Positions 638 through 15,394 of a stretch of DNA of 64,000 bases are shown piece after piece. Every line of letters starts with the position of its first letter. Position 1 is the first letter of the stretch. The translations under genes were made by a program, and so were the position numbers. The DNA is from an uncultured Spirochaetaceae bacterium (GTDB lineage: Bacteria > Spirochaetota > Spirochaetia > Sphaerochaetales > Sphaerochaetaceae), in contig CALXLI010000142.1 of assembly GCA_944389155.1 (NCBI GenBank), positions 1-64,000 on the forward strand, in the 5' to 3' direction. The notes under the pieces were generated by a model that saw only the letters and a program-made list of their open reading frames with translations, had not been told where the DNA came from and searched no databases.

Positions 638-1879
638 TTATTTACCAAGCTTGTAGAACATTTCTTTCTTATAGGCTTCAACTCCGGGCTGATTGAAAGG
701 ATTTATACCAAGCATTCTTCCAGACAGATAACAAGAGAATTCAAAGAAATAAAAGAGTCCTCCAATAGTTCGTTCATCTATGCGTCCTAAATGAATCTGA
801 ATACATGGACAATGATTTGAATGTGCAATCAATGTCGCTTCCTGTGCTGCACGGTTCACATCTTCTATAGTCTTGCCGGAAAGATAATCGAATCCATCAT
901 CTATCCAGTCAGATGGTATACGCACAGAAGAACCAGGATCGATGACATCTAGCATTGTTTCGAACATAATAGGGCTTCCATCCTGAATGAACTGTCCAAG
1001 ACTATGCAGTTCCTCGGAAAATTCCGCAGCTATGGGGAATAGCCCTTTTCCATCCTTACCCTCGCTTTCAGCAAACAATTGCTCCCACCATTTATAAAAC
1101 CATCTTAATCTCGGTTCAAATGAAGAGAGGAGTTCTACTTTATATCCATCAGCATAAAACTTATTCCTCAATGCAGCATATATGAATGCAGGATTATTAT
1201 TGTAAGGCATAGAACAAAGCTTTTCGGCCATATAACGAGCACCTGCAGAGAGTGCTCGTATATCTGCACCACAGGCAGCCATTGGGAATAGATGGACCGG
1301 AGAAAGCGCTGTGTATCGGCCACCTATATCCGCAGGAAAAGGCAGTACAGCATACCCTTCATCCAATGCTAAGCTTTCAAACCTTGATGACGGTGTACAC
1401 GTACAGAAAATCCTTCCTTTCGCTCCGTTCCGTCCATATCGCTTCACCAGTATATCTCTGAAAACACGGAATGCAAGTCCCGGCTCCAAAGTCTCAAAGT
1501 TCTTTGCAATACAATCAATTACAAAATCGTGCCCCTCCAGCTTGCTGATGATTTTTTCATACTCATAAGCAGAAAGCGTGTTTCCGGCATATATTATATC
1601 CATACCGCTTTTCTTTTCCAAAGCTTCCAAAAGTGCACGGGTACTATTAACTGATCCTCCTATTCCAATCAATACAAATGTATCTGCAATAGAAGAAGCT
1701 TTTGCAGCAGCTTCTAAGCAATAATCAAGAATATCATCATTGGCCCATTCGGAGGGAGAAAGCCAGCCAAGGTTTTCTGAATAATCTGCTTCTCCTTGCT
1801 GAACGATAGTCAGCAATTCATTAAATTCGGAATATTCTTCAATATTTATCGTATTGCCACAAAGCTCAATATCAATCAT
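638..1879 (-). CDS. pgi: glucose-6-phosphate isomerase family protein
   Basis: This 413-residue protein matches the short bacterial phosphoglucose isomerases, which interconvert glucose-6-phosphate and fructose-6-phosphate. Visible landmarks in order are the SIS-fold phosphate loop GIGGSVNST, PGI signature 1 as IGGRYTALSP, the catalytic glutamate block LGQFIQDG...FET, the AHSNH histidine block and signature 2 as GINPFNQPGVEAYKK. All expected catalytic residues seem to be present. I prefer ATG 1879 because AAGGAA lies six bases before it; an in-frame ATG at 1903 overlaps the upstream gene and has no such site. It is the last gene of the island operon, ten bases after a sulfatase. That location is odd for housekeeping glycolysis, so its substrate may be the sugar product of the sulfatases (inference). 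Confidence 0.88.
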   Translation of the reverse strand: MIDIELCGNTINIEEYSEFNELLTIVQQGEADYSENLGWLSPSEWANDDILDYCLEAAAKASSIADTFVLIGIGGSVNSTRALLEALEKKSGMDIIYAGNTLSAYEYEKIISKLEGHDFVIDCIAKNFETLEPGLAFRVFRDILVKRYGRNGAKGRIFCTCTPSSRFESLALDEGYAVLPFPADIGGRYTALSPVHLFPMAACGADIRALSAGARYMAEKLCSMPYNNNPAFIYAALRNKFYADGYKVELLSSFEPRLRWFYKWWEQLFAESEGKDGKGLFPIAAEFSEELHSLGQFIQDGSPIMFETMLDVIDPGSSVRIPSDWIDDGFDYLSGKTIEDVNRAAQEATLIAHSNHCPCIQIHLGRIDERTIGGLFYFFEFSCYLSGRMLGINPFNQPGVEAYKKEMFYKLGK

Positions 1880-1889
1880 TCTGCTTTCC

Positions 1890-3359
1890 TTATATGTAAT
1901 CATTCAGGCCAAGACGCTCATACTGTTCAACAGGAGCCTCACTCTCCTTCATAAGAGCAACAAGATTTAAAATCATCTGCTCCTCAATTTTAGATTTGCC
2001 AATGAGGTTGTTTTCCTGCCCTGGATCATTTTCAAGATCAAACAGCATATCACCATACTGAAGATGGACATCATACATATGGTGCGTTCCATTGGGTACA
2101 TATTCTGTATTTGCAGGAATCTTAAGCATAGGCACATTGCCAGAGAATCTGAAATCACGTTCAAGACATTCCGTAAGGCGAAGCTCTTCTTTCTTGAAGA
2201 GAGATGCCAATCTAGTAGGCATGAGTGTATATTCATATAATTTAGAATTATCCCTAGCACATCTGAAATACGTATAACGACCATCGGTAATATTAACATG
2301 CTTGCCGAAATAACCATATAAGATATAATCGTGGACTTTCTCATCATTTTTTACGACAGGAATCAGACTGTGTCCCTGCATTGATGCTGGGATTTCTGCT
2401 CCAAAATACTCAAGAAGAGTCGGAGCTATATCAATTGACTGTGATAGTGCACTCCGATGAGATCCAGCGCATTCAGGAAAATCTGGATGATATATGAAGA
2501 ATGGAAGGTTTACCAACTCCTGATAGCAAGGCATATAATTCTTGGCCATGTAACCATGTTCTCCCAGCATATAACCATGATCGGTATTAACAATAAGAAG
2601 TGTATCTTTCCATAGATTATACTGATCAAAAATATCAAGGATGCGTCCTAAGTAATCATCACACATAGAAATACATGCCTTATAATTTATTATTGCATCC
2701 CTCACCTGTTTAGCATCCTCTACAGGACCATATACAGGCCAATCATATGGAATTGGTTCATCGGTATATAATCTTTTATATTTCTCAGGAGCATCAAATG
2801 GTTCATGAGGATCAAAATATTCAAGATGAAGATACCAATTATCTTCATTATGATTATTTACAAGAAAATCACGTGCTGCTTCGAAACATCTTGCATGGCA
2901 ACAGTCAGTACCTCTTGTGTATTCACGATTTATGGTATCCTGTCGTCTAGGATTTCGTTTGGTTTTAAAACCTGCAGCTCTAGCATGCCATTCATCACCT
3001 TCCTGCCCTCTTATAAATTCAAATGCAGAAAATCTCTGATGATAAGTCAATCCTCCATCTTGCCAATAATGAGCATGATCAGAAACAAATTGAGTACATA
3101 TTCCTGAATTAGAAAGGATCTCCGGACAAGAGTCATCAAACGGTTCTAAAGGCCCCCAGCTTCTATGAAGGAAATTATAACGCCCAGTCTGAATCTCTCT
3201 TCGCGCTGGCATACACGGCATGCTTCCACAATAAAAATTATCAAATGTGATAGAATGCTCTGCCAAACGCGCAAAATTTGGAGCTATGATATCTTTCATA
3301 CCATATGGGGGAAGATAACGTCTATTAAGGGAATCATACATTATAAGAACAGCTTTCAT
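1890..3359 (-). CDS. sulfatase (alkaline phosphatase superfamily), second copy
   Basis: A type I sulfatase of about 489 residues. The active-site motif C-x-P-x-R appears as CMPAR near residue 50. Its cysteine would be converted to formylglycine, as in other cysteine-type sulfatases. The metal-site block NTDHGYMLGEHGY follows in the middle of the protein. There is no signal peptide, so the enzyme is probably cytoplasmic. Start: ATG 3359 gives the family-typical MKAVLIMYDS; the in-frame ATG at 3371 overlaps the preceding sulfatase and lacks a binding site. The substrate cannot be read from the sequence: phosphonate monoester and phosphodiester hydrolases share this fold and motif. No maturation enzyme (anaerobic sulfatase-maturating radical SAM protein) is encoded in the window. 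Confidence 0.85.
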   Translation of the reverse strand: MKAVLIMYDSLNRRYLPPYGMKDIIAPNFARLAEHSITFDNFYCGSMPCMPARREIQTGRYNFLHRSWGPLEPFDDSCPEILSNSGICTQFVSDHAHYWQDGGLTYHQRFSAFEFIRGQEGDEWHARAAGFKTKRNPRRQDTINREYTRGTDCCHARCFEAARDFLVNNHNEDNWYLHLEYFDPHEPFDAPEKYKRLYTDEPIPYDWPVYGPVEDAKQVRDAIINYKACISMCDDYLGRILDIFDQYNLWKDTLLIVNTDHGYMLGEHGYMAKNYMPCYQELVNLPFFIYHPDFPECAGSHRSALSQSIDIAPTLLEYFGAEIPASMQGHSLIPVVKNDEKVHDYILYGYFGKHVNITDGRYTYFRCARDNSKLYEYTLMPTRLASLFKKEELRLTECLERDFRFSGNVPMLKIPANTEYVPNGTHHMYDVHLQYGDMLFDLENDPGQENNLIGKSKIEEQMILNLVALMKESEAPVEQYERLGLNDYI

Positions 3360-3361
3360 AG

Positions 3362-4858
3362 TTACATCCATTTAAAAACAGACTCTGCCAATCTCTTTTC
3401 ATAATTTGGAGATATTATCTGCTTGTCATACTTTATAGGAGAAAGCTTTCCGTTCTGTGCAAAAATACAGTCATCTGTATTCCACGAGGAAAGCTCTGCG
3501 ATTGCCTGCTGCCTGAATTCTTTTACCTTTTCTTCATATTCTTGTTCGTTGACAAGATTTGCTGTCTCCTTAGGATCTTTCTCAAGATCAAAAAACATTT
3601 CTGCTCCTGTCCTGAGAAAATAGATATATTTATACTTGCCATCTATCACGAAGAAATTATCCTCTTCAGGGGAATAACATTCGATATGTTCTCCTTCCAC
3701 AAACCGCCGATCCAATTTATCCCCATTGCAAGATCCTTTAAGGGATAATCCTTCACATTCGTCAGGGATTTCAGAGCCACAGATATCAAGAACTGTAGGC
3801 ATCACATCATATATTGATACTGGATCATTACAGGTTCTTACCTGTCCTCCTTCTTTCTGCAACGATTTAGGAAGCTTGACAATAAAAGGGATATGAGCAG
3901 ATCCCTCATATGCATATGTCTTCCTCATCAGATAATGATCTCCCATCATATCGCCATGATCAGAGAGAAACACAATCAACATCTCATCCAAGAGCTTTTG
4001 TTTGTTCAGGGTTGTCAGCATACGTCCAATCTGATAATCCGTCTGTGTAATCGACCCGAGATATCCGCACCATGCTTCATCTCGTCTAGCCTGTCCTATG
4101 TCACCATGCCATGCAAGAACAGATCCATCGAATGGCTTATACTTTTCAGACCATTCTCCATGAGCATTCTCAGGCTTTTCACGTCCACGATACTTATCAA
4201 AAAAATATTGGCTTGCATCATAAGGAGAATGAGGCCGCGAAAATGACATATTAAGGAAAAAAGGCATTGATGGATCCCTGTTTTTCAGATATTTAAGTGA
4301 TTCACTGACTGTCCAATTGCTGGGGTGATATTCCTCAGAAGCATGAAAAGGACGAGCCATCCATGAATTCCAATGTACTCCATGATCTGTAATATCATAC
4401 ATTTGGGGATTATTCTGCAGAAACCAGGTTTTATAATCAGACATGAAGTTCTTATCTTCTTCCCTTCCTGATTCATCAATCAGTGTATGGGAAAATCCCA
4501 TAAGGGATCTCTGAGGGAAAAAATGCATCTTCCCTATGCCTTCCGCATGATAGCCATTCTTTACCAGTTCTCCTGCAAGCGTATGTTTGAAATTACAGCC
4601 CATTACGCCACCTTTCTTATGAGGACCTGCAGAATTTCCAGTAAAAAGCACTCCAGTTGTCCAAGGCTTCTGTCCTGTCATCAAAGAAGCTCTAGCAGGA
4701 ATACAAGACGGAGATGGTGTGTAAGCATTGGTAAAGACAGTACCAAGAGATGCAAGCCAATCTATATTAGGAGTCTCTACCAATCCTCGGGATGAATAGC
4801 CCAGACAATCAAACCTGAGCTGATCCATCATTATCAAAAGACAGTTATATTTACCCAT
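3362..4858 (-). CDS. sulfatase (alkaline phosphatase superfamily), first copy
   Basis: A 498-residue sulfatase-family enzyme with the modification motif CIPARASLMTG near residue 52. The N-terminal metal ligand pair sits in LLIMMDQLRFD and the second metal site in LSDHGDMMGDH. The layout resembles choline-sulfatase and arylsulfatase-like enzymes of the COG3119 group. It is only moderately similar by eye to the sulfatase downstream, so the pair probably has different specificities rather than being a recent duplication. It lacks a secretion signal. Its stop region overlaps the alternative start of the next gene, which supports co-transcription. The substrate is unknown. Confidence 0.87.
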   Translation of the reverse strand: MGKYNCLLIMMDQLRFDCLGYSSRGLVETPNIDWLASLGTVFTNAYTPSPSCIPARASLMTGQKPWTTGVLFTGNSAGPHKKGGVMGCNFKHTLAGELVKNGYHAEGIGKMHFFPQRSLMGFSHTLIDESGREEDKNFMSDYKTWFLQNNPQMYDITDHGVHWNSWMARPFHASEEYHPSNWTVSESLKYLKNRDPSMPFFLNMSFSRPHSPYDASQYFFDKYRGREKPENAHGEWSEKYKPFDGSVLAWHGDIGQARRDEAWCGYLGSITQTDYQIGRMLTTLNKQKLLDEMLIVFLSDHGDMMGDHYLMRKTYAYEGSAHIPFIVKLPKSLQKEGGQVRTCNDPVSIYDVMPTVLDICGSEIPDECEGLSLKGSCNGDKLDRRFVEGEHIECYSPEEDNFFVIDGKYKYIYFLRTGAEMFFDLEKDPKETANLVNEQEYEEKVKEFRQQAIAELSSWNTDDCIFAQNGKLSPIKYDKQIISPNYEKRLAESVFKWM

Positions 4859-4902
4859 ATCACAAGAATATGACGATAAATCACGAAAACAAGTAGAATA
4901 TA

Positions 4903-6471
4903 TTATTCCACTTTGCGAACCTTCCTGACAGGAGAAGCTATAACAAAATCACCATTATCTTCAAATGCTCTTATATAGAAGCTATGATCATATGGAATAT
5001 CTATATTCTCTGCCAAATGACAACAACTTTCCCCTATCTGGACAGGAACTCCAACAAGAACAGCAGGTGAAACAAAACCATCAAGATACTCAACAACAGG
5101 GTTTATTATTTCAGAAACCCTGTAAGAATATCGTCTATTGATCTGCTTGCCATTATATGTTGCATTGATATCAATCAACACTATCGCAGAAGAAGCTTCA
5201 GATATGCAAAGCACGAGCCCCTGACCATTATCTGTAAGCGTATTCAGATTGCCATTTGAAAAAAAGTCAAGATTGATATGATTGCCACACAAAGCATATT
5301 CTATCCGATGACGATTACCAATATCATCAAGAGGAGCAACAACATCTTCACCTCTGAATCGTGGAGATGCTTCCAGAATATCCCCATATTCCACACATAT
5401 GTTTACTTTCCAGAAAGTTTCAATGTTTTTCTTTCCCCATCCAAATTCCAATGGTATCCATGTTATATCATCTGCAATTTCATGATGAGGATTATATATT
5501 GTACGTATTGTTCTATCATTGATAATAAAATCTACATGCGACAATCTGGAACAGCCGGCAATATAACAGTCCACAGTAGATGAAATCTTCTCAGACTCAT
5601 AAACAGTACCCATTGGATGACCATCTACTTTATAATCTATCTCAATAGGATCTCCAGACAAAGCAACCGTTCTTCGCTTAAGAAATGCATTCCATATACC
5701 ATCACGCGAACGTTCTTCTGCCCAAATTCCGGTACGGCCAAATCCATAACTTCCAGGAGAAGCATTATGATGATCGGTATTTCCTATAACGCCAAAGAAA
5801 AGGCCTGCTCTCAAACCTCCCTGCATAGTATTATTTCCACATCTAGGCCCCATGGTATGGAGATATCGGAATAGATTGTCATGGCTTTCAGCACAACCAT
5901 GCATGGAAACAATCTCAATCAGAGGAGTTGTCTTTTCATTAAATGCATTCCAATTTATCCCTCTGTACCCTGTCTTATATCCAATATGATGGGGAAAAGC
6001 CATTATGCCGGAAATAGCAGGATCATTTGTATCAATGAGCTCCTGTAGCCGCATGTCTTCAGTTTCGGAATCCGGATCAGGCGGCAACTCTGTATCTCGC
6101 TTTTTTGCTATTACAGTATAATCCCCTAAATCGAAATGATGATATTCATAAGAAGGAAACATTATCAGATCAGTATTCTTCTCCGCTAAAGCAATCTTAT
6201 TCAGATATTCAGGCCAAAGCCTGCGAAGCTTCTTAAACCCATTGATATGATATTCCATCACATCATCAGGAATCATCATTCCAGACTTGGACATATCGGG
6301 CTAGGCAAAATGTCCTGTTATACCAGCAAAATCAAGCTGTAATGATGCAAAATGAATTGCATCATCAATACTTCCATGTCCATAACTTATACCACAATGA
6401 TTATGTATATCCCCAATAAGGAATACATCAGACACACAAGCAATACCAAATATACGCTGTAATTTATTCAT
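4903..6471 (-). CDS. DUF3604 (PHP-like) protein interrupted by an in-frame TAG
   Basis: The full frame starts at ATG 6471, which forms an ATGA overlap with the stop of the response regulator, and runs 522 codons to 4903. Codon 57 (6303-6301) is TAG, in the context GHFA-stop-PDM, where I recall relatives carrying tryptophan (TGG). Before the stop is a PHP-type metal motif, GDIHNHCG. After it come FPSYEYHH, MAFPHHIGY, SMHGC, GPRCGN and GNTDHHNASPGSYG, typical of DUF3604. A downstream ATG at 6294 would give a 463-residue protein lacking the first HxH motif. Options are a recent nonsense mutation, a sequencing error, or a functional shorter form. The context (sulfatases, importer) suggests hydrolysis of a phosphate or sulfate ester, but the reaction is not known to me. 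Confidence 0.8.
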
Positions 6472-7160
6472 CGTTCTTCCAAATCCTCAAATATTAGGCC
6501 CTCTGCATTTATTTCCTTTATAAGAGCCACTATCTCCTTCGTCCGTTTCATCGAGAATTTCCTCAGAATATTTGTAATCTGCTTTTTGATTGTTATTGTT
6601 TCCACAAAGCGACATTCAGCAATCTCCTTCACGCTCCGTCCTTCATATAACAGCTTAATGATTTCCCGTTCTGATGGCGTAAGCGTGATAAATGTACGAT
6701 AAAGATTGTTTATTTCGTTCTTCTCTCTTCGCAGCTTCATGAACTCATTATGGATAAGCTTGTTGATATCCGAATCAAACACTATGTGATTATCAATAGC
6801 CTTCCTTATATGGTTTATGAGATTGTTGCAATTAGCTTCCTTTACCACATAATCAACTACACCTGAGTCAAAGGCCTTCAGAATAAGATCTGACTCTTCA
6901 TGAACCGTCAGCATTATTATTCTTGTATCGGGAAGCTCTTTCAGTATTTTATGGCTATAGACAATTCCAGAATCTAATTCCTCCATTTCCATATCCATAA
7001 CTACAATATCCGGCATAAGTCTGAGGGATTCCCTGTAAGCCTCATAACCAGAAGAGGCCGCATACACAATCTCGAAATCATCTTGCTTGGAAAGCCATGA
7101 AACTACATTATTTCTAAGAATTTCTATATCATCGGCAATCAATATCCGTATAGCCATCAT
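6468..7160 (-). CDS. NarL/FixJ-type response regulator
   Basis: A 230-residue regulator. Residues 1-125 form a receiver domain with the acidic pair near the start (ADD), the phosphoacceptor aspartate in IVVMDMEME near residue 55, the threonine in MLTVHE and the lysine in VVKEA. Residues about 160-220 form a LuxR-type helix-turn-helix, beginning LTPSEREIIKLLYEG. The gene overlaps the end of the kinase gene by ATGA and the start of DUF3604 by ATGA, so it is translated in a chain with both. It probably controls the island operon in response to the kinase (inference). Confidence 0.9.
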   Translation of the reverse strand: MMAIRILIADDIEILRNNVVSWLSKQDDFEIVYAASSGYEAYRESLRLMPDIVVMDMEMEELDSGIVYSHKILKELPDTRIIMLTVHEESDLILKAFDSGVVDYVVKEANCNNLINHIRKAIDNHIVFDSDINKLIHNEFMKLRREKNEINNLYRTFITLTPSEREIIKLLYEGRSVKEIAECRFVETITIKKQITNILRKFSMKRTKEIVALIKEINAEGLIFEDLEER

Positions 7161-8656
7161 CTCACCCTGTTTTTAGGAAGCATAACCATAAATTCTGTCA
7201 ATTCTGGGTTGCTTTCAAGCTGTATCTCTCCAAAATGCATCTTGATTATCATATGCGTATAGAAAAGTCCGAGCCCCCAGTTGCTGCCAGTATTTTTCGT
7301 AGTCGTGAAAGGCTGGAATAATTGTTGTTGTATTTTTTCTGGAATAGCGGGACCATTATTACGAATTGATATCATGACACGGGCACGGAGGGCTTGCACC
7401 CTGACTTCTACATGAGGATGTTCAATTCCTTTAGTTGCCTCTATTGCATTATTGATGATGTTATATATAGCCTCGCTTAGAAGTTCCTTATCAGCAATTA
7501 TCATCGAATCCTCAATATCATATGAAATCAACGAATCAGCATCCAATGGAAGCTTAGAACGACAGGCTTCTATTAAATCTGATATGGACAAACGTACAAG
7601 CTTAAGCTCAACATTCATAAATGATTTATATATCACATCCAATCGGCTACGTATGATTGATATCTGATTAGAAAGCTGCTGGATTTCTGCGTACGCATCA
7701 GGCATATCATCTTTGCATTTATCAATCTGTTCAGATAGTTCTGCAACCAGTATCTCCGCGACTATAATCTGATTCTTCAATCCATGTACAAGAACAGAGG
7801 AGGAACCTCCAAAATCCTTTCCTCTTCGACTTATTGAAAGCTCATTCCGACTTCTATTATACGTGTAACGATAATACTTTAAATTCTGTATTATGATAGC
7901 AACCAACAGCACAAGGCAGCTTGATAATACAAACCACCACCGCATATATGCATTATATCCTTGTACAGGAATAACTGATGACGAATATACTCTTACGGTT
8001 CTGTAATCCTGAAACACTGTTACAGGATTAAGACTGGCAAAGAAGAAAAAAACAATCGTGAGAAGAAATGCAGAAAGCATGAGATTTCTATGATATGCGC
8101 GTATCACGGGTATACCTATATCTTTGTATTCAACCAAAAAGAACAAATATGAAATAAATAATGATAATAACATCAATATATCCGAAGCCTTCACCGCAAT
8201 ACGCTGGCTATGGTAGTCAAAAGAAAAAAGCAGGACAAACACTTTAGGCTGCATTATTACAAGTATGAACAGAAGGGGAACCAATATGCCACAATAAGCC
8301 AGCTTATGCTCGAGGAAGAAAACCCTCATGGTATAGTTACATGATAAGGAATAGAAAAAGAACAATATGCAGAATGAAATCCTCAGGGCAGTCATGATAG
8401 ATGCCATGACATCCGCGCTCATCGGATATGACTGAAAATACGAAACAAGCCAAACAGGACCTAAAAGCGTTGATTTTTCCCTTATAGTCAAACCGCCCGT
8501 TTTTGCAAAATACATCGCGAAAAGCACAATATATATAATCACTAAAAAATGAAGGAGAGACGGAAGGATCATCTTCCTTATGGAGGAAAATATCACAATC
8601 ACAATAATTGACAGTATCAGTGAAAGCAATATCAGGCTAAGCATACTCCTCCTCAA
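7157..8656 (-). CDS. membrane sensor histidine kinase
   Basis: A 499-residue kinase. The first about 265 residues contain roughly eight hydrophobic helices, with a short extracytoplasmic segment near 215-245 and no PAS or HAMP domain. A cytoplasmic kinase core follows: H-box LVHGLKNQ near residue 294, N-box SEAIYNIINNAIEA near 400 and G-box NWGLGLFYTHMIIK near 460. The H-box style (HGLKNQ) and N-box fit the small HATPase_c kinases that pair with LuxR-type regulators. The stop overlaps the regulator start by ATGA. It lies directly after the binding-protein gene, so the sensed signal is probably the imported compound or its product (inference). Confidence 0.87.
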   Translation of the reverse strand: MRRSMLSLILLSLILSIIVIVIFSSIRKMILPSLLHFLVIIYIVLFAMYFAKTGGLTIREKSTLLGPVWLVSYFQSYPMSADVMASIMTALRISFCILFFFYSLSCNYTMRVFFLEHKLAYCGILVPLLFILVIMQPKVFVLLFSFDYHSQRIAVKASDILMLLSLFISYLFFLVEYKDIGIPVIRAYHRNLMLSAFLLTIVFFFFASLNPVTVFQDYRTVRVYSSSVIPVQGYNAYMRWWFVLSSCLVLLVAIIIQNLKYYRYTYNRSRNELSISRRGKDFGGSSSVLVHGLKNQIIVAEILVAELSEQIDKCKDDMPDAYAEIQQLSNQISIIRSRLDVIYKSFMNVELKLVRLSISDLIEACRSKLPLDADSLISYDIEDSMIIADKELLSEAIYNIINNAIEATKGIEHPHVEVRVQALRARVMISIRNNGPAIPEKIQQQLFQPFTTTKNTGSNWGLGLFYTHMIIKMHFGEIQLESNPELTEFMVMLPKNRVR

Positions 8657-8687
8657 AGGGCCACTTCAAAGAAGCGGCCCAATAAAT

Positions 8688-9692
8688 TCAATTATTTACA
8701 GCATTCTCCATATATTCCCAATGTATGTACGTGTCGAGATCAACCATCTCTGAAATCTTGCCTGTATCATACATTGACTGCTGCTGAACATAATAATACT
8801 GTTCGATATTGCCGTTCTCCAGATTTTCCTTAAGCTCAGCCTTATCAAAGAAGAAAACTGTTCCTATCTGATCTTTGATATTCTGTGGATCAGAATCCAA
8901 AAGTTCAGCAACCAGTCCTGCTACTTCTTCCTCATGTGTTTTCCAATAATCCATGCTCTTCACAACAGCATTCACGAAATGCTGAACCACTTCAGGATTC
9001 TCATCAATATATGACTGTGTCGTAAGCCAGCTTGAGACAGAAGCATACTTATCACCAAAATCGGATGTCCTTGTCAATGCAAGGAAATTATCTCCTAGTT
9101 GTTGTCTGACTGTTACAAGATAACTTCCCCATACGCATACAGCATCAACTCTGCCCGCAATGATTGCAGTAACACAACCTCCCATATCCATATTGATAAG
9201 TTCCACATCATTTCTGGAAAGTCCCGCTTCCTCTAATGCAAGATTGACAATATTTTCACCGGAAGTACCAAGAGTCGTAGCAATAGTCTTTCCCTTAAGA
9301 TCCTTAATACTATTGATACCAGAATTCTTATTTACAACTATAACTTCATTATCTCCAAGATTCTGATAGCAAACAACCTCTACATCTCCCTCAACTGCAA
9401 GTGTTGTTGCTCCCGAGCCAATATAGCCAAACTGAAGATCTCCGCTGACAAGGGCTGCAACTTCAGTAGGGCCGGATGTAAAAGGAACAGGTTCAACAGC
9501 TAAACCTTCTTCTTCAAAAAAGCCCTTCTCAAGACCAACAGCCATCACAGCAGCTCCTGAATAACCAAGATGATGAGCTACCTTTATCTTGGTCAAGCCA
9601 TCATCCGTAGTAGACCCTTCTTGTGAACCACCTGCAAAAACAGACTGCAAAGCAATAAGCAGAACAAGTGTCAAGATAAAAACTTTCTTCAT
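8688..9692 (-). CDS. ABC transporter substrate-binding protein, SsuA/TauA (NMT1) type
   Basis: A 334-residue secreted binding protein. A signal peptide occupies about residues 1-20 and is followed by GGSQEG, a spacer common on spirochaete binding proteins; no lipobox cysteine is present. The mature part has NMT1/periplasmic-binding-II landmarks: KVAHHLGYSG, GLEKGFFEEEGL, GDLQFGYIGSGA, LKGKTIATTLGTSGENI and GRVDAVCVWGSY. Known members bind sulfonates, taurine, nitrate, aromatic compounds or thiamine precursors, and residues alone do not decide which. The gene follows the ATPase gene by 18 bases with a good Shine-Dalgarno site (GGAGGAGA), so all three importer genes belong to one operon. Confidence 0.9.
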   Translation of the reverse strand: MKKVFILTLVLLIALQSVFAGGSQEGSTTDDGLTKIKVAHHLGYSGAAVMAVGLEKGFFEEEGLAVEPVPFTSGPTEVAALVSGDLQFGYIGSGATTLAVEGDVEVVCYQNLGDNEVIVVNKNSGINSIKDLKGKTIATTLGTSGENIVNLALEEAGLSRNDVELINMDMGGCVTAIIAGRVDAVCVWGSYLVTVRQQLGDNFLALTRTSDFGDKYASVSSWLTTQSYIDENPEVVQHFVNAVVKSMDYWKTHEEEVAGLVAELLDSDPQNIKDQIGTVFFFDKAELKENLENGNIEQYYYVQQQSMYDTGKISEMVDLDTYIHWEYMENAVNN

Positions 9693-9710
9693 TCTATATC
9701 TCCTCCTTTT

Positions 9711-10523
9711 TTACTTTCTAACCTCAAGATATTCCTCATAAACCTGTCCCCAGACATAGTTCTTGATTTTCTGATATTCTTCAGTCATTTTCGTTGACTG
9801 ATCTCTTGGATGAGGTATATCCACATTGACGATATCCTTAATCCGGCCAGGTCGTGCACTCATTATTACGATCCTAGATGCAAGAATTACAGCTTCATCA
9901 ATATCATGGGTAATAAAAAGACATGTCTTCTTTTCTTGTTCCCATGTTTTTATAAGTTCACTTTGAAGCTGTGTTCTTGTCTGAGCATCCAATGCACCAA
10001 AAGGCTCATCAAGGAGCAGAATCTGAGGATTCACCGCATAAGCACGGGCAATAGCAACTCTCTGTTTCATACCACCAGAAAGCTGTTTGGGATATGAATT
10101 CGCAAAATCCTCTAACTGGACAAGATTCAGATACTTATCTACGGTTGTATCTATCTCCTTTTTATCAAGCCCCTTTTTCTTTCCATTGCTATCGATGACT
10201 CTGATCTGCTTGAGTCCAAATTCGATATTCTTTCGTACAGTAAGCCACGGGAAAAGCGCATATTGCTGGAATACTACACCTCTTTCAATACTAGTTCCTT
10301 CGACTTCCTTTCCCTCAAACAGAACTTGGCCAGATGTTGGCGGGAAAAGGCCTGCAAGCATATTGAGCATTGTGCTTTTACCACAACCTGAAGGTCCGAC
10401 GACACAGATAAACTCATTTCTGGAGATATCAAGATTAACTCCATTAAGGGCGATTGTTGTACCGTTCTTCGTATGATATTCCTTAACTACATTTTTAAAC
10501 TGAGCAATAACATCACTGGTCAT
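9711..10523 (-). CDS. ABC transporter ATP-binding protein, SsuB/TauB type
   Basis: A 270-residue ATPase that would energise the importer. It has Walker A GPSGCGKST, a Q-loop in VVFQQYALFPW, the signature LSGGMKQR, Walker B ILLLDEPFGALD and a switch histidine in LFITHDIDEA. The sequence style is that of the nitrate/sulfonate/bicarbonate importer ATPases. Its start lies one base after the permease stop, which is typical of translational coupling. Length is normal for the family. Confidence 0.92.
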   Translation of the reverse strand: MTSDVIAQFKNVVKEYHTKNGTTIALNGVNLDISRNEFICVVGPSGCGKSTMLNMLAGLFPPTSGQVLFEGKEVEGTSIERGVVFQQYALFPWLTVRKNIEFGLKQIRVIDSNGKKKGLDKKEIDTTVDKYLNLVQLEDFANSYPKQLSGGMKQRVAIARAYAVNPQILLLDEPFGALDAQTRTQLQSELIKTWEQEKKTCLFITHDIDEAVILASRIVIMSARPGRIKDIVNVDIPHPRDQSTKMTEEYQKIKNYVWGQVYEEYLEVRK

Positions 10524-10524
10524 A

Positions 10525-11319
10525 TCACCCCTCCTCCACTATTGTGTCCTGCCAGTCTGCTACCCGTTTTTCAAGCATACGGACTAACTTCTGAAGAATA
10601 AGGCCCAACACTCCTATTACAAGAATTCCCATAAGGACTATATCCATTCGGAAATACTGACTTGAAGATTGAATCATAACGCCCATTCCCCTAGCAGCAC
10701 CTGTCATCTCCGCTGCAATAAGCGTCGTAAGAGCTGAAGAGAGTCCGAGCCTCATGGCCGTAATGATAAACGGGGAAGAAGCTGGAACTACAACCCTTGT
10801 GAAAATCGTAAAATCATTCGCCCCTAGAACCCTTGCAGCTTTTATAAGGGTACTATCTACATTTTTCACACCCTGAAATATCGTTATCGTCATTGTTAAG
10901 AAACATGCAATAAAAATAACGACTATCTTTGACTCTTCTCCAACACCTGCAGCAACAACAACGAGAGGAATATATGAAATAGGCGGTATGTTCTTAAGGA
11001 ACTGAATCCAAGGCTCTACAATAGTACAGATAGTTTTATACCATCCTAATATGAAAGCAACTGGCAACGAACATATGAAAGCTAAAAGAAAACCAATTAT
11101 TATTCGTTTCAGGCTTGCCCAAAAATTTTGCAGAAGAGATCCTGATTTCAATGATTCCATCATAGATCCCATTACTTCCATAGGTGAAGCAAACACTTTT
11201 CCACCAGATGGAGAAAGGCTTATAAGCCACCAAAGGAACACAGCAATCACCAAAGATAATAAAGCGCCTTGCCATTTTGAAAGAACATGCCCCTTTTTCT
11301 TCTTGAAAGAGTTGCTCAT
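10525..11319 (-). CDS. ABC transporter permease, SsuC/TauC type
   Basis: A permease of about 264 residues with six or so membrane helices. It has the inner-membrane transport signature near residues 160-180 (VKNVDSTLIKAARVLGAND), matching the EAA-loop of sulfonate/nitrate permeases. ATG 11319 is chosen because AAAGGAG stands ten bases ahead of it; an in-frame ATG 39 bases further upstream lacks a binding site. It is the first gene of the nine-gene island operon, and the operon promoter must lie in 11320-11515. Confidence 0.9.
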   Translation of the reverse strand: MSNSFKKKKGHVLSKWQGALLSLVIAVFLWWLISLSPSGGKVFASPMEVMGSMMESLKSGSLLQNFWASLKRIIIGFLLAFICSLPVAFILGWYKTICTIVEPWIQFLKNIPPISYIPLVVVAAGVGEESKIVVIFIACFLTMTITIFQGVKNVDSTLIKAARVLGANDFTIFTRVVVPASSPFIITAMRLGLSSALTTLIAAEMTGAARGMGVMIQSSSQYFRMDIVLMGILVIGVLGLILQKLVRMLEKRVADWQDTIVEEG

Positions 11320-12246: not shown

Positions 12247-12780
12247 TTAATCCGTTGTTTTTGCCAACTTCCTGATTTCCTTATATCTATTCCGCAGGTT
12301 ATATAGGACATTCTGTACCCTCTCCGATCGATAATCAGCATATGTCCATGGGAATGATACATAGTGTCTGTTCTGATAAACAAGCGTGAGCTCAGCGTAA
12401 AGAGAAAGCCCTATGGCTATCCTATGCGCCCTGTTCTTGGTCGTCGCAAGTATTATAGAAGACTCTGAAAGAAGGCCTGGATCTAGATTGATGCGCCTTT
12501 TTCCATCATCCGCCCACGCCTTCTCGATCTCATTTGTCTTCTCTTTTATAGAAGCAAGTGTATCAGGAGAGACAAGATTCCTGAATGATATGAAGAAACG
12601 TTCTATCCCTTCACCCATCTCAGGGACATAGTAATCCGTGAAATCAAAAGGAAAAGGCTCTGTTATGATATCTATCGGACCGAATTCCGCTTCAAGTTCG
12701 TTTTTGAGAGCATCTGGGAATCCCCTCACAGAGAGGACTCCCATGAAAAGCATCACATCATCGTATTCTTTCTTGTTCAT
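12247..12780 (-). CDS. DUF4416 family protein
   Basis: A 177-residue protein with the DUF4416 pattern: a start around MLFMGVLSV, FGPIDIITEPFPFDFTDYY followed by EMG, then NLDPGLL, the ATTKNRAHRIA block and WTYADYRSE near the end. I know the family from deltaproteobacteria and spirochaetes but not its function. The start overlaps the stop of the upstream fusion gene by ATGA, so the two are translationally coupled. Confidence 0.85.
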   Translation of the reverse strand: MNKKEYDDVMLFMGVLSVRGFPDALKNELEAEFGPIDIITEPFPFDFTDYYVPEMGEGIERFFISFRNLVSPDTLASIKEKTNEIEKAWADDGKRRINLDPGLLSESSIILATTKNRAHRIAIGLSLYAELTLVYQNRHYVSFPWTYADYRSERVQNVLYNLRNRYKEIRKLAKTTD

Positions 12781-14681
12781 CTTGCAGATGTATATGTACC
12801 AAGAAGACGGAACGAAACTGTCTTTTCCTTCATCTCATCGACAAACTTCTCAAAGACACTCTCCTCAGGAAGCCCACATTCCACGAAGAACAGATATTCC
12901 CAAGGCTTTCCAGGTATAGGTCTTGATTCAAGCTTTGTCATATTCACATTGTTTTCAGAAAAGACAGAAAGTGCCGAGGCAAGGGAACCAGGCTCATTGG
13001 AAACAGAGAATGACAGCGTTGCCTTATCCTGCTTTCCCTCTGAACGGTAAACAGCTGCATTCTCCTCACGGGCTATCACATAGAAGCGGGTAAAGTTTGA
13101 AGCATCTGTCTCTATATTCTCCCTGAGGATCTTCATGCCATAGTATGCAGCAGCTGGCTCTCCTGCTATAGCAGCTATGCTTTTGTCTTTCTTCTCTGCA
13201 ACATACTCGACAGCTCCTGCTGTATCAAAGAACGGCACGGCCTCTACATCGGGAAGCTCTTCAGAAAGGAACTTCCTGCACTGGGCAAGTCCCTGTGGAT
13301 GGGTATACACCTTCTTGATATCAGAAAGCTGGGCATCTGGAAGAGAGATAAGATTATGCACTACACGTATAAGCGCCTCACCTACAACCGTGATCTCTGG
13401 ATGCATTGCCAGCAGATCAAGCGTATCATATATGGTTCCGCCTAGTGTATTCTCAATAGGAACAACAGCATACTTGGCCTTTCCTGAAGATACTGCATCG
13501 AACGTATCTGCAAATGTATGGCATGGAAGAAGCTCAATGTTGTCATCGAATGAACGCTTTGCAGCAAGTTCAGAGAAAGCACCTCTGACTCCCTGGAAAG
13601 CAACAGTCATGGCAGATGATGCGTCGGCATTGTCATCTGCCTTCTTTGCTTCAGCCGCCCTTGGCACTCTTTCAAGGCTCTTTCCGACAACAGGGCACAA
13701 AGCCTGGATATCATGGACAAGCTTGTCAAACTGTGAAGGATAGAGCGATTGAGGTCCATCAGAAAGAGCGCACTCTGGACAATTATGCACCTCAACGATG
13801 ATTCCTGAAGCACCTGCAGCTATAAGTGCAAGGCTCATAGGAGCAACCATATCGCGTATGCCTGTTGCGTGTGATGGATCTCCTATCACAGGAAGATGCG
13901 TCAGTTTCTGGACAACAGGGATCGCAGAGCAATCAAGTGTATTCCTCGTTGCTTTTTCATATGTCCTGATTCCCCTTTCACAAAGCACAACCTGATCTGT
14001 TCCGGATGCCATGAGATACTCAGCAGCCATCAGCCATTCCTCAATGGTTGCAGCAAGTCCACGCTTCAGAAGCACAGGCATGCCTGTCTTTCCTACTTCC
14101 TTCAGAAGCTCGAAGTTCTGCATGTTCCTTGCACCGATCTGGAACATATCTATATAACCAGCCATCATCTCGACATCACGAGGAGAAACCACCTCTGTCG
14201 TTATAGGCATATCGAATGCATCTCCTGCCTTGCGAAGCAGCTTCAGGCCTTCTTCACCGAGGCCTTGGAATGAATAAGGGCTTGTCCTTGGCTTGAACGC
14301 GCCACCGCGGAGGATCACAGCGCCTGATTCCCTTACAGATTCGGCAATGGTCATTATCTGATCATAGCTCTCAACAGCACAGGGACCAGCCATTACAACT
14401 ACCCTGTTGCCACCGATCTTGACCTTTCCGACAGATACTATCGTATCTTCCTTCTTCATTTCCCTGGAAGCAAGCTTATAAGGCTTTGAGATCGGGACTA
14501 CGGAACTGACACCGGGAAGGACCTCTACTGTCCTTATATCTATGCTGGCCTTGCCTACAGCTCCAAGGACTGTATCTTCCTGTCCTACGATTTCCTTGAC
14601 AATGAAGCCCTTCTCTTTGAGAAATGACTTCACTTTATCTTTTTCGACTTGTGTTATACCCTTCTTAAGAATGACAATCAT
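12777..14681 (-). CDS. DAHP synthase - prephenate dehydratase fusion
   Basis: A 634-residue two-enzyme protein. Residues 1-345 are a type I-beta (AroF/AroG-related) 3-deoxy-D-arabino-heptulosonate-7-phosphate synthase: an N-terminal ferredoxin-like domain, then MAGPCAVES, RGGAFKPRTSPYSFQG, the lysine in LLKRG, GDPSHATG and EVHNCPE. A linker rich in A, D and K (about 340-365) follows. The rest is prephenate dehydratase (AFQGVRGAFSE, VVPIENTLGG, the SNFTRFYVI threonine block) with a C-terminal ACT domain containing a variant of the phenylalanine-binding ESRP motif as LESRPIPGKPWEY. It would catalyse the first shikimate step and a phenylalanine-branch step, with phenylalanine possibly inhibiting both. 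ATG 14681 gives the family start MIVILKKG. Confidence 0.9.
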   Translation of the reverse strand: MIVILKKGITQVEKDKVKSFLKEKGFIVKEIVGQEDTVLGAVGKASIDIRTVEVLPGVSSVVPISKPYKLASREMKKEDTIVSVGKVKIGGNRVVVMAGPCAVESYDQIMTIAESVRESGAVILRGGAFKPRTSPYSFQGLGEEGLKLLRKAGDAFDMPITTEVVSPRDVEMMAGYIDMFQIGARNMQNFELLKEVGKTGMPVLLKRGLAATIEEWLMAAEYLMASGTDQVVLCERGIRTYEKATRNTLDCSAIPVVQKLTHLPVIGDPSHATGIRDMVAPMSLALIAAGASGIIVEVHNCPECALSDGPQSLYPSQFDKLVHDIQALCPVVGKSLERVPRAAEAKKADDNADASSAMTVAFQGVRGAFSELAAKRSFDDNIELLPCHTFADTFDAVSSGKAKYAVVPIENTLGGTIYDTLDLLAMHPEITVVGEALIRVVHNLISLPDAQLSDIKKVYTHPQGLAQCRKFLSEELPDVEAVPFFDTAGAVEYVAEKKDKSIAAIAGEPAAAYYGMKILRENIETDASNFTRFYVIAREENAAVYRSEGKQDKATLSFSVSNEPGSLASALSVFSENNVNMTKLESRPIPGKPWEYLFFVECGLPEESVFEKFVDEMKEKTVSFRLLGTYTSAR

Positions 14682-14719
14682 ATCAGGGAAAAAGCTAGCT
14701 TTTCCACTTGATTTGGTCA

Positions 14720-15394
14720 ATGAATACAACTATGGACGAGAACTACTTCGATAATATATTCACACTGTTTTCCGACCGTCTTGCCGATTTCGGCTCTCCG
14801 CTGCCATCTGTGAGCACCATAGCTGAAGAGGATAATGATCCATATAAGGTTCTTGTATCAACGATAATAAGCCTAAGGACAAAGGATGCTGTAACCATTG
14901 AAGCCTCAAGGCGACTGTTTGCAATTGCCCCTGATATAAGAACACTAGCCTCTCTTGACAGCGCTGTGATATCCGAAGCCATAAAGCCAGCAGGCTTCTA
15001 CAAACGCAAAGGAGAGCAGCTTAGGAAAATCGCCGAGATCATAAGGGATGAATACAATTCAGAGGTTCCTTCTGACATGGATACGCTTCTATCTCTCCCC
15101 GGAGTAGGACTCAAGACAGCGTCCCTTGTACTGAATCTTGGATTCGGCATAGATGCGATATGCGTTGATTGCCATGTACATGAGATAGCAAACAGAATAG
15201 GCTGGGTATCCACAAAGACACCTGAAGAAACGGAAAAAGAACTGAGAAGAATACTGCCCATGCGTTTCTGGATACCGCTCAACGAGCTCCTTGTACGCTA
15301 TGGGCAGCTTGTCTGTACGCCTGTCTCCCCCAAATGCTCTATCTGTCCGATAAACGACAGCTGTGGGAAGAAAGGTGTTGAGAAATCAAGATGA
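14720..15394 (+). CDS. nth: endonuclease III
   Basis: A DNA glycosylase/AP lyase for oxidised pyrimidines. The helix-hairpin-helix LPGVGLKTASLV carries the catalytic lysine, the aspartate is in CVDCHVHEIANR, and the iron-sulfur loop has the family spacing C-x6-C-x2-C-x5-C at the C-terminus. The start is uncertain between ATG 14720 and ATG 14732; neither has a clear Shine-Dalgarno site. It diverges from the DAHP synthase fusion with only about 40 bases between starts, so the promoters must overlap. Confidence 0.9.
   Translation: MNTTMDENYFDNIFTLFSDRLADFGSPLPSVSTIAEEDNDPYKVLVSTIISLRTKDAVTIEASRRLFAIAPDIRTLASLDSAVISEAIKPAGFYKRKGEQLRKIAEIIRDEYNSEVPSDMDTLLSLPGVGLKTASLVLNLGFGIDAICVDCHVHEIANRIGWVSTKTPEETEKELRRILPMRFWIPLNELLVRYGQLVCTPVSPKCSICPINDSCGKKGVEKSR

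Follow-up and report, generated by a model that had tools for sequence, protein, structure and literature searches.

We analysed a window of 64,000 nucleotides from an uncultured gut bacterium of the Spirochaetaceae (contig CALXLI010000142.1 of assembly GCA_944389155.1; genome G000 in our numbering, in which G, C and L denote genomes, contigs and loci). Nine closely spaced genes run along its minus strand from position 11319 to 638 and encode an ATP-binding cassette (ABC) importer, a two-component system, a DUF3604 protein, two sulfatases and a divergent enzyme of the phosphoglucose isomerase (PGI) family, which we call PGI2. Judging from the sequences, we see an even chance that a parallel glycolysis exists for sugars whose C6 retains a sulfur group, probably a 6-O-sulfate, and that this operon handles uptake, sensing and entry for it. 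The most likely candidate substrates would be glucose-, glucosamine- or N-acetylglucosamine (GlcNAc)-6-sulfate from mucin or glycosaminoglycans.

Glycolytic paralogues and their phosphate sites

PGI2 (638..1903, minus strand), the last gene of the operon, matches PF00342 at 2.2e-19 and NCBIfam PRK14097 at 396.7 bits, below the cut-off of 443, and aligns over its full length with solved Bacillus-type PGIs (3ff1, 327 bits). It is a second, divergent PGI and not the glycolytic housekeeping isomerase, because a canonical PGI of 539 amino acids is present elsewhere in the genome, on contig C38. The catalytic motifs GIGGS, GGRY, ESEGK, H and GVEAYK of 3ff1 are kept, and GGRY/F, ESEGK, AH and GVE.YK recur in nearly all of the 25 PGI2 sequences. 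The phosphate loop, SKSGTTTEP in 3ff1, reads AKNFETLEP in PGI2; the pattern AK[ND]F.TLEP holds in 25 of 25, with the canonical SK[ST].TT absent. The gene is sporadic, occurring in 7 of the 48 genomes of the genus (matches below 1e-80). Its closest relative (65%) lies in L041 (G037:C108), beside a carbohydrate ABC importer, GFO/IDH oxidoreductases, an AP_endonuc_2 isomerase and a ROK regulator; no SsuA-type importer is present at that locus.

In related genomes, PGI2 is joined by further paralogues: NagB2 (deaminase), NagA2 (deacetylase), PFK2, FBA2 (class II aldolase), TPI2 and LarA2. Same-strand cassettes occur in G022, G013 and G005 (L043, L044, L046 and L090). Combined, L044 and L046, from two related genomes, give the order NagB2, NagA2, DUF3604, permease, ATPase, substrate-binding protein (SBP), kinase, regulator, ROK, PGI2, FBA2, PFK2, TPI2, LarA2 and a SulfB-type sulfatase. 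The window's operon is not self-contained, because the remaining pathway genes lie on another contig of its genome, C77, in the order LacI, PFK2, NagB2, FBA2, TPI2, LarA2 (L083). FBA2 matches PF01116, PFK2 PF00365, TPI2 PF00121 and LarA2 PF09861; NagA2 scores above the cut-off of TIGR00221, while NagB2 falls below that of TIGR00502, yet matches solved NagB chains. PFK2 carries the motifs GGN[GD]S and PKT.DND. LarA2 is a single-histidine LarA-like nickel enzyme that aligns full-length with 9q3j at 843 bits; its motif GLH ... NPYGGYSGGYK, found in 74 of 76 sequences, has Asn at the second catalytic His and keeps the Lys and the first His.

We scanned the LarA2 alignment over the genome contigs, obtaining at least 503 related stretches from gut Clostridia and spirochaetes, and kept the best 80 for inspection; the cassette recurs in their loci. 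These 80 came from Clostridia, other Bacillota and Spirochaetota, and the gene counts over them were LarA2 76, TPI2 68, PFK2 55, FBA2 47, ABC ATPase 46, NagA2 42, NagB2 34, permease 34, SBP 27, kinase 22, regulator 20 and PGI2 17. The order permease, ATPase, SBP, histidine kinase, response regulator, that is, the first five genes of the window's operon, is repeated beside LarA2 in both Bacillota and Spirochaetota, and the operon's ATPase is 60-64% identical to ATPases adjoining LarA2 cassettes.

The loci also vary in content. A mannose-isomerase-like gene occurs in L116, L117, L147, L159 and L166, and transketolase-pair genes in L159, L164, L166 and L172; together with a ketohexokinase variant described below, these take the positions of PGI2/PFK2/FBA2 and suggest alternative entries to the same C3 endpoint. 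Downstream of the cassette in L127, L129, L131, L134, L170 and L173 lie related genes in which a chemoreceptor signalling domain is joined to an NMT1/SsuA-type binding domain (Pfam check made for L134); perhaps their products sense the same ligand.

As in PGI2, the C6- or C3-phosphate site is altered in NagB2, TPI2 and FBA2, where we take the residue roles to be those known in general for the structures of canonical PGI, NagB, TIM and class II aldolase. In NagB2, the phosphate loop TGSSP has become VG--P in 33 of 34 sequences, and the phosphate-contact segment GHNKA has become R[ND]WHR. TPI2 has YGGG in place of YGGS in all 66 sequences and, at the phosphate end, AL followed by TRF in place of GG in 64 of them, with the catalytic N.K, H and E kept. 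The Ser at the C6 end of FBA2 is replaced by Ala, within QGADLA, in 40 of 40 sequences; the metal and C1-phosphate motifs HLDHG, EGELG, HGSS and NVDTD are intact. This pattern would fit a substrate that receives its phosphate at C1, while another kind of anion occupies C6 (or, in the triose, C3), since Arg residues, new or retained, argue for an anion at the altered site.

Importer, sulfatases and exporters

The importer genes, all on the minus strand like the rest of the operon, are a TauC/SsuC-like permease (10525..11319; PF00528 at 1.5e-24, and NCBIfam TauC at 3e-46, below its cut-off), a nitrate/taurine-type ATPase (9711..10523; PF00005 at 2.4e-36) and an SsuA/NMT1-type substrate-binding lipoprotein, the SBP (8688..9692). 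The SBP only just reaches the SsuA-family cut-off (TIGR01728, 163.9 bits against 163.5), and its nearest solved chains are the taurine- and sulfonate-binding proteins 6ssy, 3uif and 2x26.

Both sulfatases are of the cytosolic type I kind, with the formylglycine motif C-x-P-x-R. SulfA (3362..4858; CIPAR; PF00884 at 6.5e-42) is S1_46-like, its nearest solved chain being 7oz8 (BT1918), at 40% over 491 columns; BT1918 removes the 3-O-sulfate of 3S,6S-GlcNAc to give 6S-GlcNAc (PMC10154620, PMC10154612). SulfB (1890..3371; CMPAR; PF00884 at 1.4e-32) has a 66% identical relative directly after LarA2 in L044. Within the genus, and ignoring kinship among the genomes, the median number of sulfatases per genome was 5.5 in LarA2 carriers and 0 in non-carriers (Mann-Whitney p 5e-6), SulfB-type sulfatases were found in 11 of the 14 carriers against 2 of the 34 non-carriers, and PGI2 in 7 of the 14 against 0 of the 34. 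About 14 of the best 80 loci have a TauE-type gene close to LarA2 (12 of these genes form one cluster, and two more are TSUP genes), compared with a genome background of about 2.4 per 4.6 Mb. The presence of sulfatases favours an O-sulfate over a sulfonate, while TauE and SsuA would fit both.

Operon layout and neighbouring features

The initial annotation had placed all nine genes on one strand, and this was borne out, as were the gene families it named, by Pfam and NCBIfam matches (for DUF3604, through the PF12228 matches of relatives). It had also described the spacing as tight, with three ATGA couplings. The spacing is indeed tight, with junctions, in gene order, of +1, +18, +31, -4, -4, +44, -10 and -14 bases; only the two -4 junctions are ATGA (the second at 6468-6471), and the last two are longer overlaps. 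Its proposal that the gene order be sought in other genomes gave a divided answer. All nine families lie on one strand in the relative locus L043, so the grouping is more than chance; the L043 sulfatases are of other subfamilies, and the exact nine-gene order was found in no other locus among the relatives compared.

The sensing genes are a membrane histidine kinase (7157..8656; PF02518, HATPase_c, at 8.4e-18) and a NarL/LuxR-type response regulator (6468..7160; PF00072, Response_reg, with PF00196, GerE). The DUF3604 gene, of the CehA-McbA metallohydrolase type (4903..6471), opens at 6471 in the ATGA shared with the regulator, and its codon 57 (6301-6303) is an in-frame TAG, which interrupts it and which the initial annotation missed while naming the family correctly. 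The open reading frame downstream of the stop is therefore without the first PHP-type metal motif (GDIHNHC). The window's copy has no Pfam match and hits NCBIfam CehA/McbA-DUF3604 below its cut-off; the relatives in L043 and L046 have uninterrupted frames that match PF12228. The TAG means that the gene is broken or that the assembly contains a point error here.

The operon is bounded upstream by a gap of about 160-200 bp and downstream by a plus-strand open reading frame (251-565). The latter is a fragment that lies at the end of the contig and points towards the operon; it has no Pfam match, and by eye it looks like the C-terminal part of a DUF4143-type ATPase. Elsewhere in the window, a single open reading frame at 12777-14729 (minus strand) fuses a 3-deoxy-D-arabino-heptulosonate 7-phosphate synthase (with a ferredoxin-like domain), a prephenate dehydratase and an ACT domain.

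Proposed pathway, alternatives and known systems

From gene content, conservation, pocket changes and co-occurrence we infer the group at C6 and every reaction of the following scheme. The SsuA-type importer would take in a sulfated sugar, which the two-component system would sense, and SulfA and SulfB, working in the cytosol, would strip sulfates from other positions (probably the 3-O-sulfate in the case of SulfA) and leave the 6-O-sulfate. PGI2, for glucose, or NagA2 and NagB2, for GlcNAc or glucosamine, would yield fructose-6-sulfate; PFK2 would phosphorylate this at C1; and FBA2 would cleave the product into dihydroxyacetone phosphate (DHAP), for use in normal glycolysis, and the C3 sulfate glyceraldehyde-3-sulfate. 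The handling of the C3 sulfate by TPI2 and LarA2 is the least certain step. We speculate that the TPI2 enediol may lose sulfate to give methylglyoxal and that a hydride shift by LarA2 may give lactate; one catalytic His could be enough for such a shift on one face. In its fullest form, which is tentative and which we regard as doubtful, the proposal is a pathway, widespread in the gut, that breaks down 6-O-sulfated (amino)sugars with no 6-desulfation beforehand: sulfate would replace phosphate through isomerase, deaminase, kinase and aldolase until TPI2 releases it as sulfate alongside methylglyoxal and LarA2, as a hydride-shift isomerase, forms lactate. In the open-licence literature we found no such route described for the catabolism of GlcNAc-6-sulfate or glucose-6-sulfate.

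These data support the initial annotation's suggestion that a sulfated or sulfonated sugar is imported, and make it more specific. The same is true of its side remark that an analogue could be the isomerase's substrate: PGI2 is divergent, has an altered phosphate loop and is part of a paralogous glycolytic cassette. The order that the initial annotation proposed, in which the ester is cleaved and the sugar then enters glycolysis, is not supported as the main route, because full desulfation and phosphorylation would make the PGI2, PFK2, FBA2 and TPI2 paralogues unnecessary, and dedicated paralogues travel with PGI2. We also rejected a reading in which the operon forms a self-contained pathway with glucose-6-phosphate as its end product, given the canonical PGI and the additional glycolytic paralogues that accompany PGI2.

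Several findings weigh against a parallel glycolysis of 6-sulfated sugars. The altered PGI2 loop contains a Glu, the DUF3604 gene is interrupted, and most of the 80 LarA2 loci are without sulfatase or TauE. No sulfatase-maturing enzyme (anSME) was found at the family cut-off in the window's genome, an assembly that is 89% complete and has 14 sulfatase matches, so SulfA and SulfB may be inactive or the anSME gene may be missing from the assembly; the enzyme is present in 11 of the 13 other cassette-carrying genomes of the genus (E<1e-80). In some loci, among them L140, L141 and L143 (also L161), a ketohexokinase-family gene stands instead of PFK2 (PF25270, in Lacrimispora-type loci), which would suit a free sugar too. 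Finally, LarC, which serves nickel-pincer cofactor synthesis, occurs in only 6 of the 14 LarA2-carrying genomes of the genus; as proof that LarA2 uses this cofactor, co-occurrence with LarC failed. The eight carriers lacking LarC include two assemblies that are at least 94% complete.

The same parallel glycolysis might instead serve C6-sulfonated sugars (sulfoquinovose or a sulfo-hexosamine), with PGI2 as sulfoquinovose isomerase, PFK2 and FBA2 as analogues of SqiK and SqiA, sulfolactaldehyde as the C3 product, and TPI2 possibly eliminating sulfite for export by TauE. SqiK (PF00365) and SqiA (PF01116) of sulfo-EMP2, a sulfoglycolytic Embden-Meyerhof-Parnas (EMP) pathway, do belong to the families of PFK2 and FBA2 (PMC9594981), sulfo-EMP clusters contain TauE and ABC genes (PMC8873060), and the SBP resembles sulfonate binders. 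We nevertheless consider sulfonates unlikely: the sulfatases sit in the operon and correlate with the cassette, yet cannot cut C-S bonds; NagA2 and NagB2 are commoner than PGI2 in the best 80 loci; and we recognised no YihS or SqvD isomerase in the cassettes, nor any sulfolactaldehyde reductase or dehydrogenase among the cassette genes, whose neighbours (including short-chain dehydrogenase/reductase and zinc-dependent alcohol dehydrogenase genes) are only partly annotated. We also know of no abundant amino-sulfonate sugar of the gut, which counts against this alternative.

Ordinary sulfate-ester scavenging, with full desulfation in the cytosol and PGI2 as a redundant glucose-6-phosphate isomerase, would account for the pairing of sulfatases and an SsuA-like importer in one operon and for the intact PGI catalytic residues. 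It is improbable, however, given the canonical PGI, the phosphate loop changed in every PGI2 and the lack of a hexokinase in the operon, and it leaves PFK2, FBA2, TPI2, NagB2 and LarA2 travelling along unexplained. The loss of phosphate-site residues and the ketohexokinase loci could point to a plain OH at C6, that is, to a phosphate-free upper pathway from free glucose or glucosamine through fructose and fructose-1-phosphate to DHAP and glyceraldehyde, the latter for TPI2 and LarA2. We give this little credence, because the C6/C3 site has retained or acquired basic residues (TRF in TPI2, R.WHR in NagB2, NVDTDIR/FDPR in FBA2) and the sulfatases, TauE and the SsuA-type SBP would be unexplained. 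Least probable, and very unlikely in our view, is an operon shared by separate pathways, with sulfatases and importer for sulfur supply and PGI2 as a hitch-hiker: PGI2 of G037 does lie in another context (a sugar ABC importer, GFO/IDH and a TIM-barrel isomerase, in L041), and the exact gene order is not repeated, but all nine families reappear in L043 and the importer and two-component module accompanies the cassette across Spirochaetota and Bacillota.

Intestinal mucin is commonly capped with 6-O-sulfated GlcNAc, which glycosaminoglycans contain as well, and the general view is that bacteria require a 6-O-sulfatase in order to use it. A parallel glycolysis of 6-sulfated sugars, if true, would account for the ability of Clostridia and spirochaetes to feed on sulfated monosaccharides that others release, would give a testable function to a LarA-like subfamily that has solved structures but no substrate, and would constitute a new type of sulfoglycolysis-like pathway. 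The substrate set is made directly assayable: glucose-6-sulfate (Glc6S), glucosamine-6-sulfate (GlcN6S), GlcNAc-6-sulfate (GlcNAc6S) and sulfoquinovose.

Among known systems, the proposed pathway resembles sulfo-EMP2, which consists of SqvD (FucI-like), SqiK and SqiA (PMC9594981), in its aldose isomerase, its PF00365 kinase acting at C1, its PF01116 class II aldolase with DHAP and a sulfur-bearing C3 compound as products, its ABC import and its TauE-type export; PFK2 and FBA2 supply the kinase and aldolase in L044 and on the window genome's own C77. It differs in that the isomerase is of the PGI family (or the NagB and apparently also the mannose isomerase family), PGI2 belonging to PF00342 and not to the YihS or SqvD families of sulfoquinovose isomerases. 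It also has an amino-sugar entry, TPI2 and LarA2 in place of a sulfolactaldehyde reductase or dehydrogenase, and neighbouring sulfatases that suggest an O-sulfate. The Nag pathway and EMP glycolysis share with the cassette the fold families of NagA, NagB, PGI, PFK, FBA and TPI and likely the reaction types, but not the C6/C3-phosphate sites, which are altered in PGI2, NagB2, FBA2 and TPI2. SulfA is 40% identical to BT1918 (S1_46, PDB 7OZ8) of Bacteroides thetaiotaomicron; the latter has been described as a periplasmic enzyme, with a 6-O-sulfatase following it, whereas SulfA has no visible signal peptide and adjoins PGI2.

LarA2 is a close member of the LarA His-to-Asn subfamily (LarA_Bw, 9q3j; LarA_Sp, 9q2u). 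For this subfamily, Gatreddi et al. 2025 reported PGI, PFK, TPI, FBA and NagB neighbours in Blautia and Streptococcus and suggested a role in carbohydrate metabolism; they found no lactate racemisation by LarA_Sp and assigned no substrate or pathway (PMC12611868). To that account we add the link to sulfur, the changes at the C6-phosphate sites, and the arm of ABC importer, two-component system and sulfatases.

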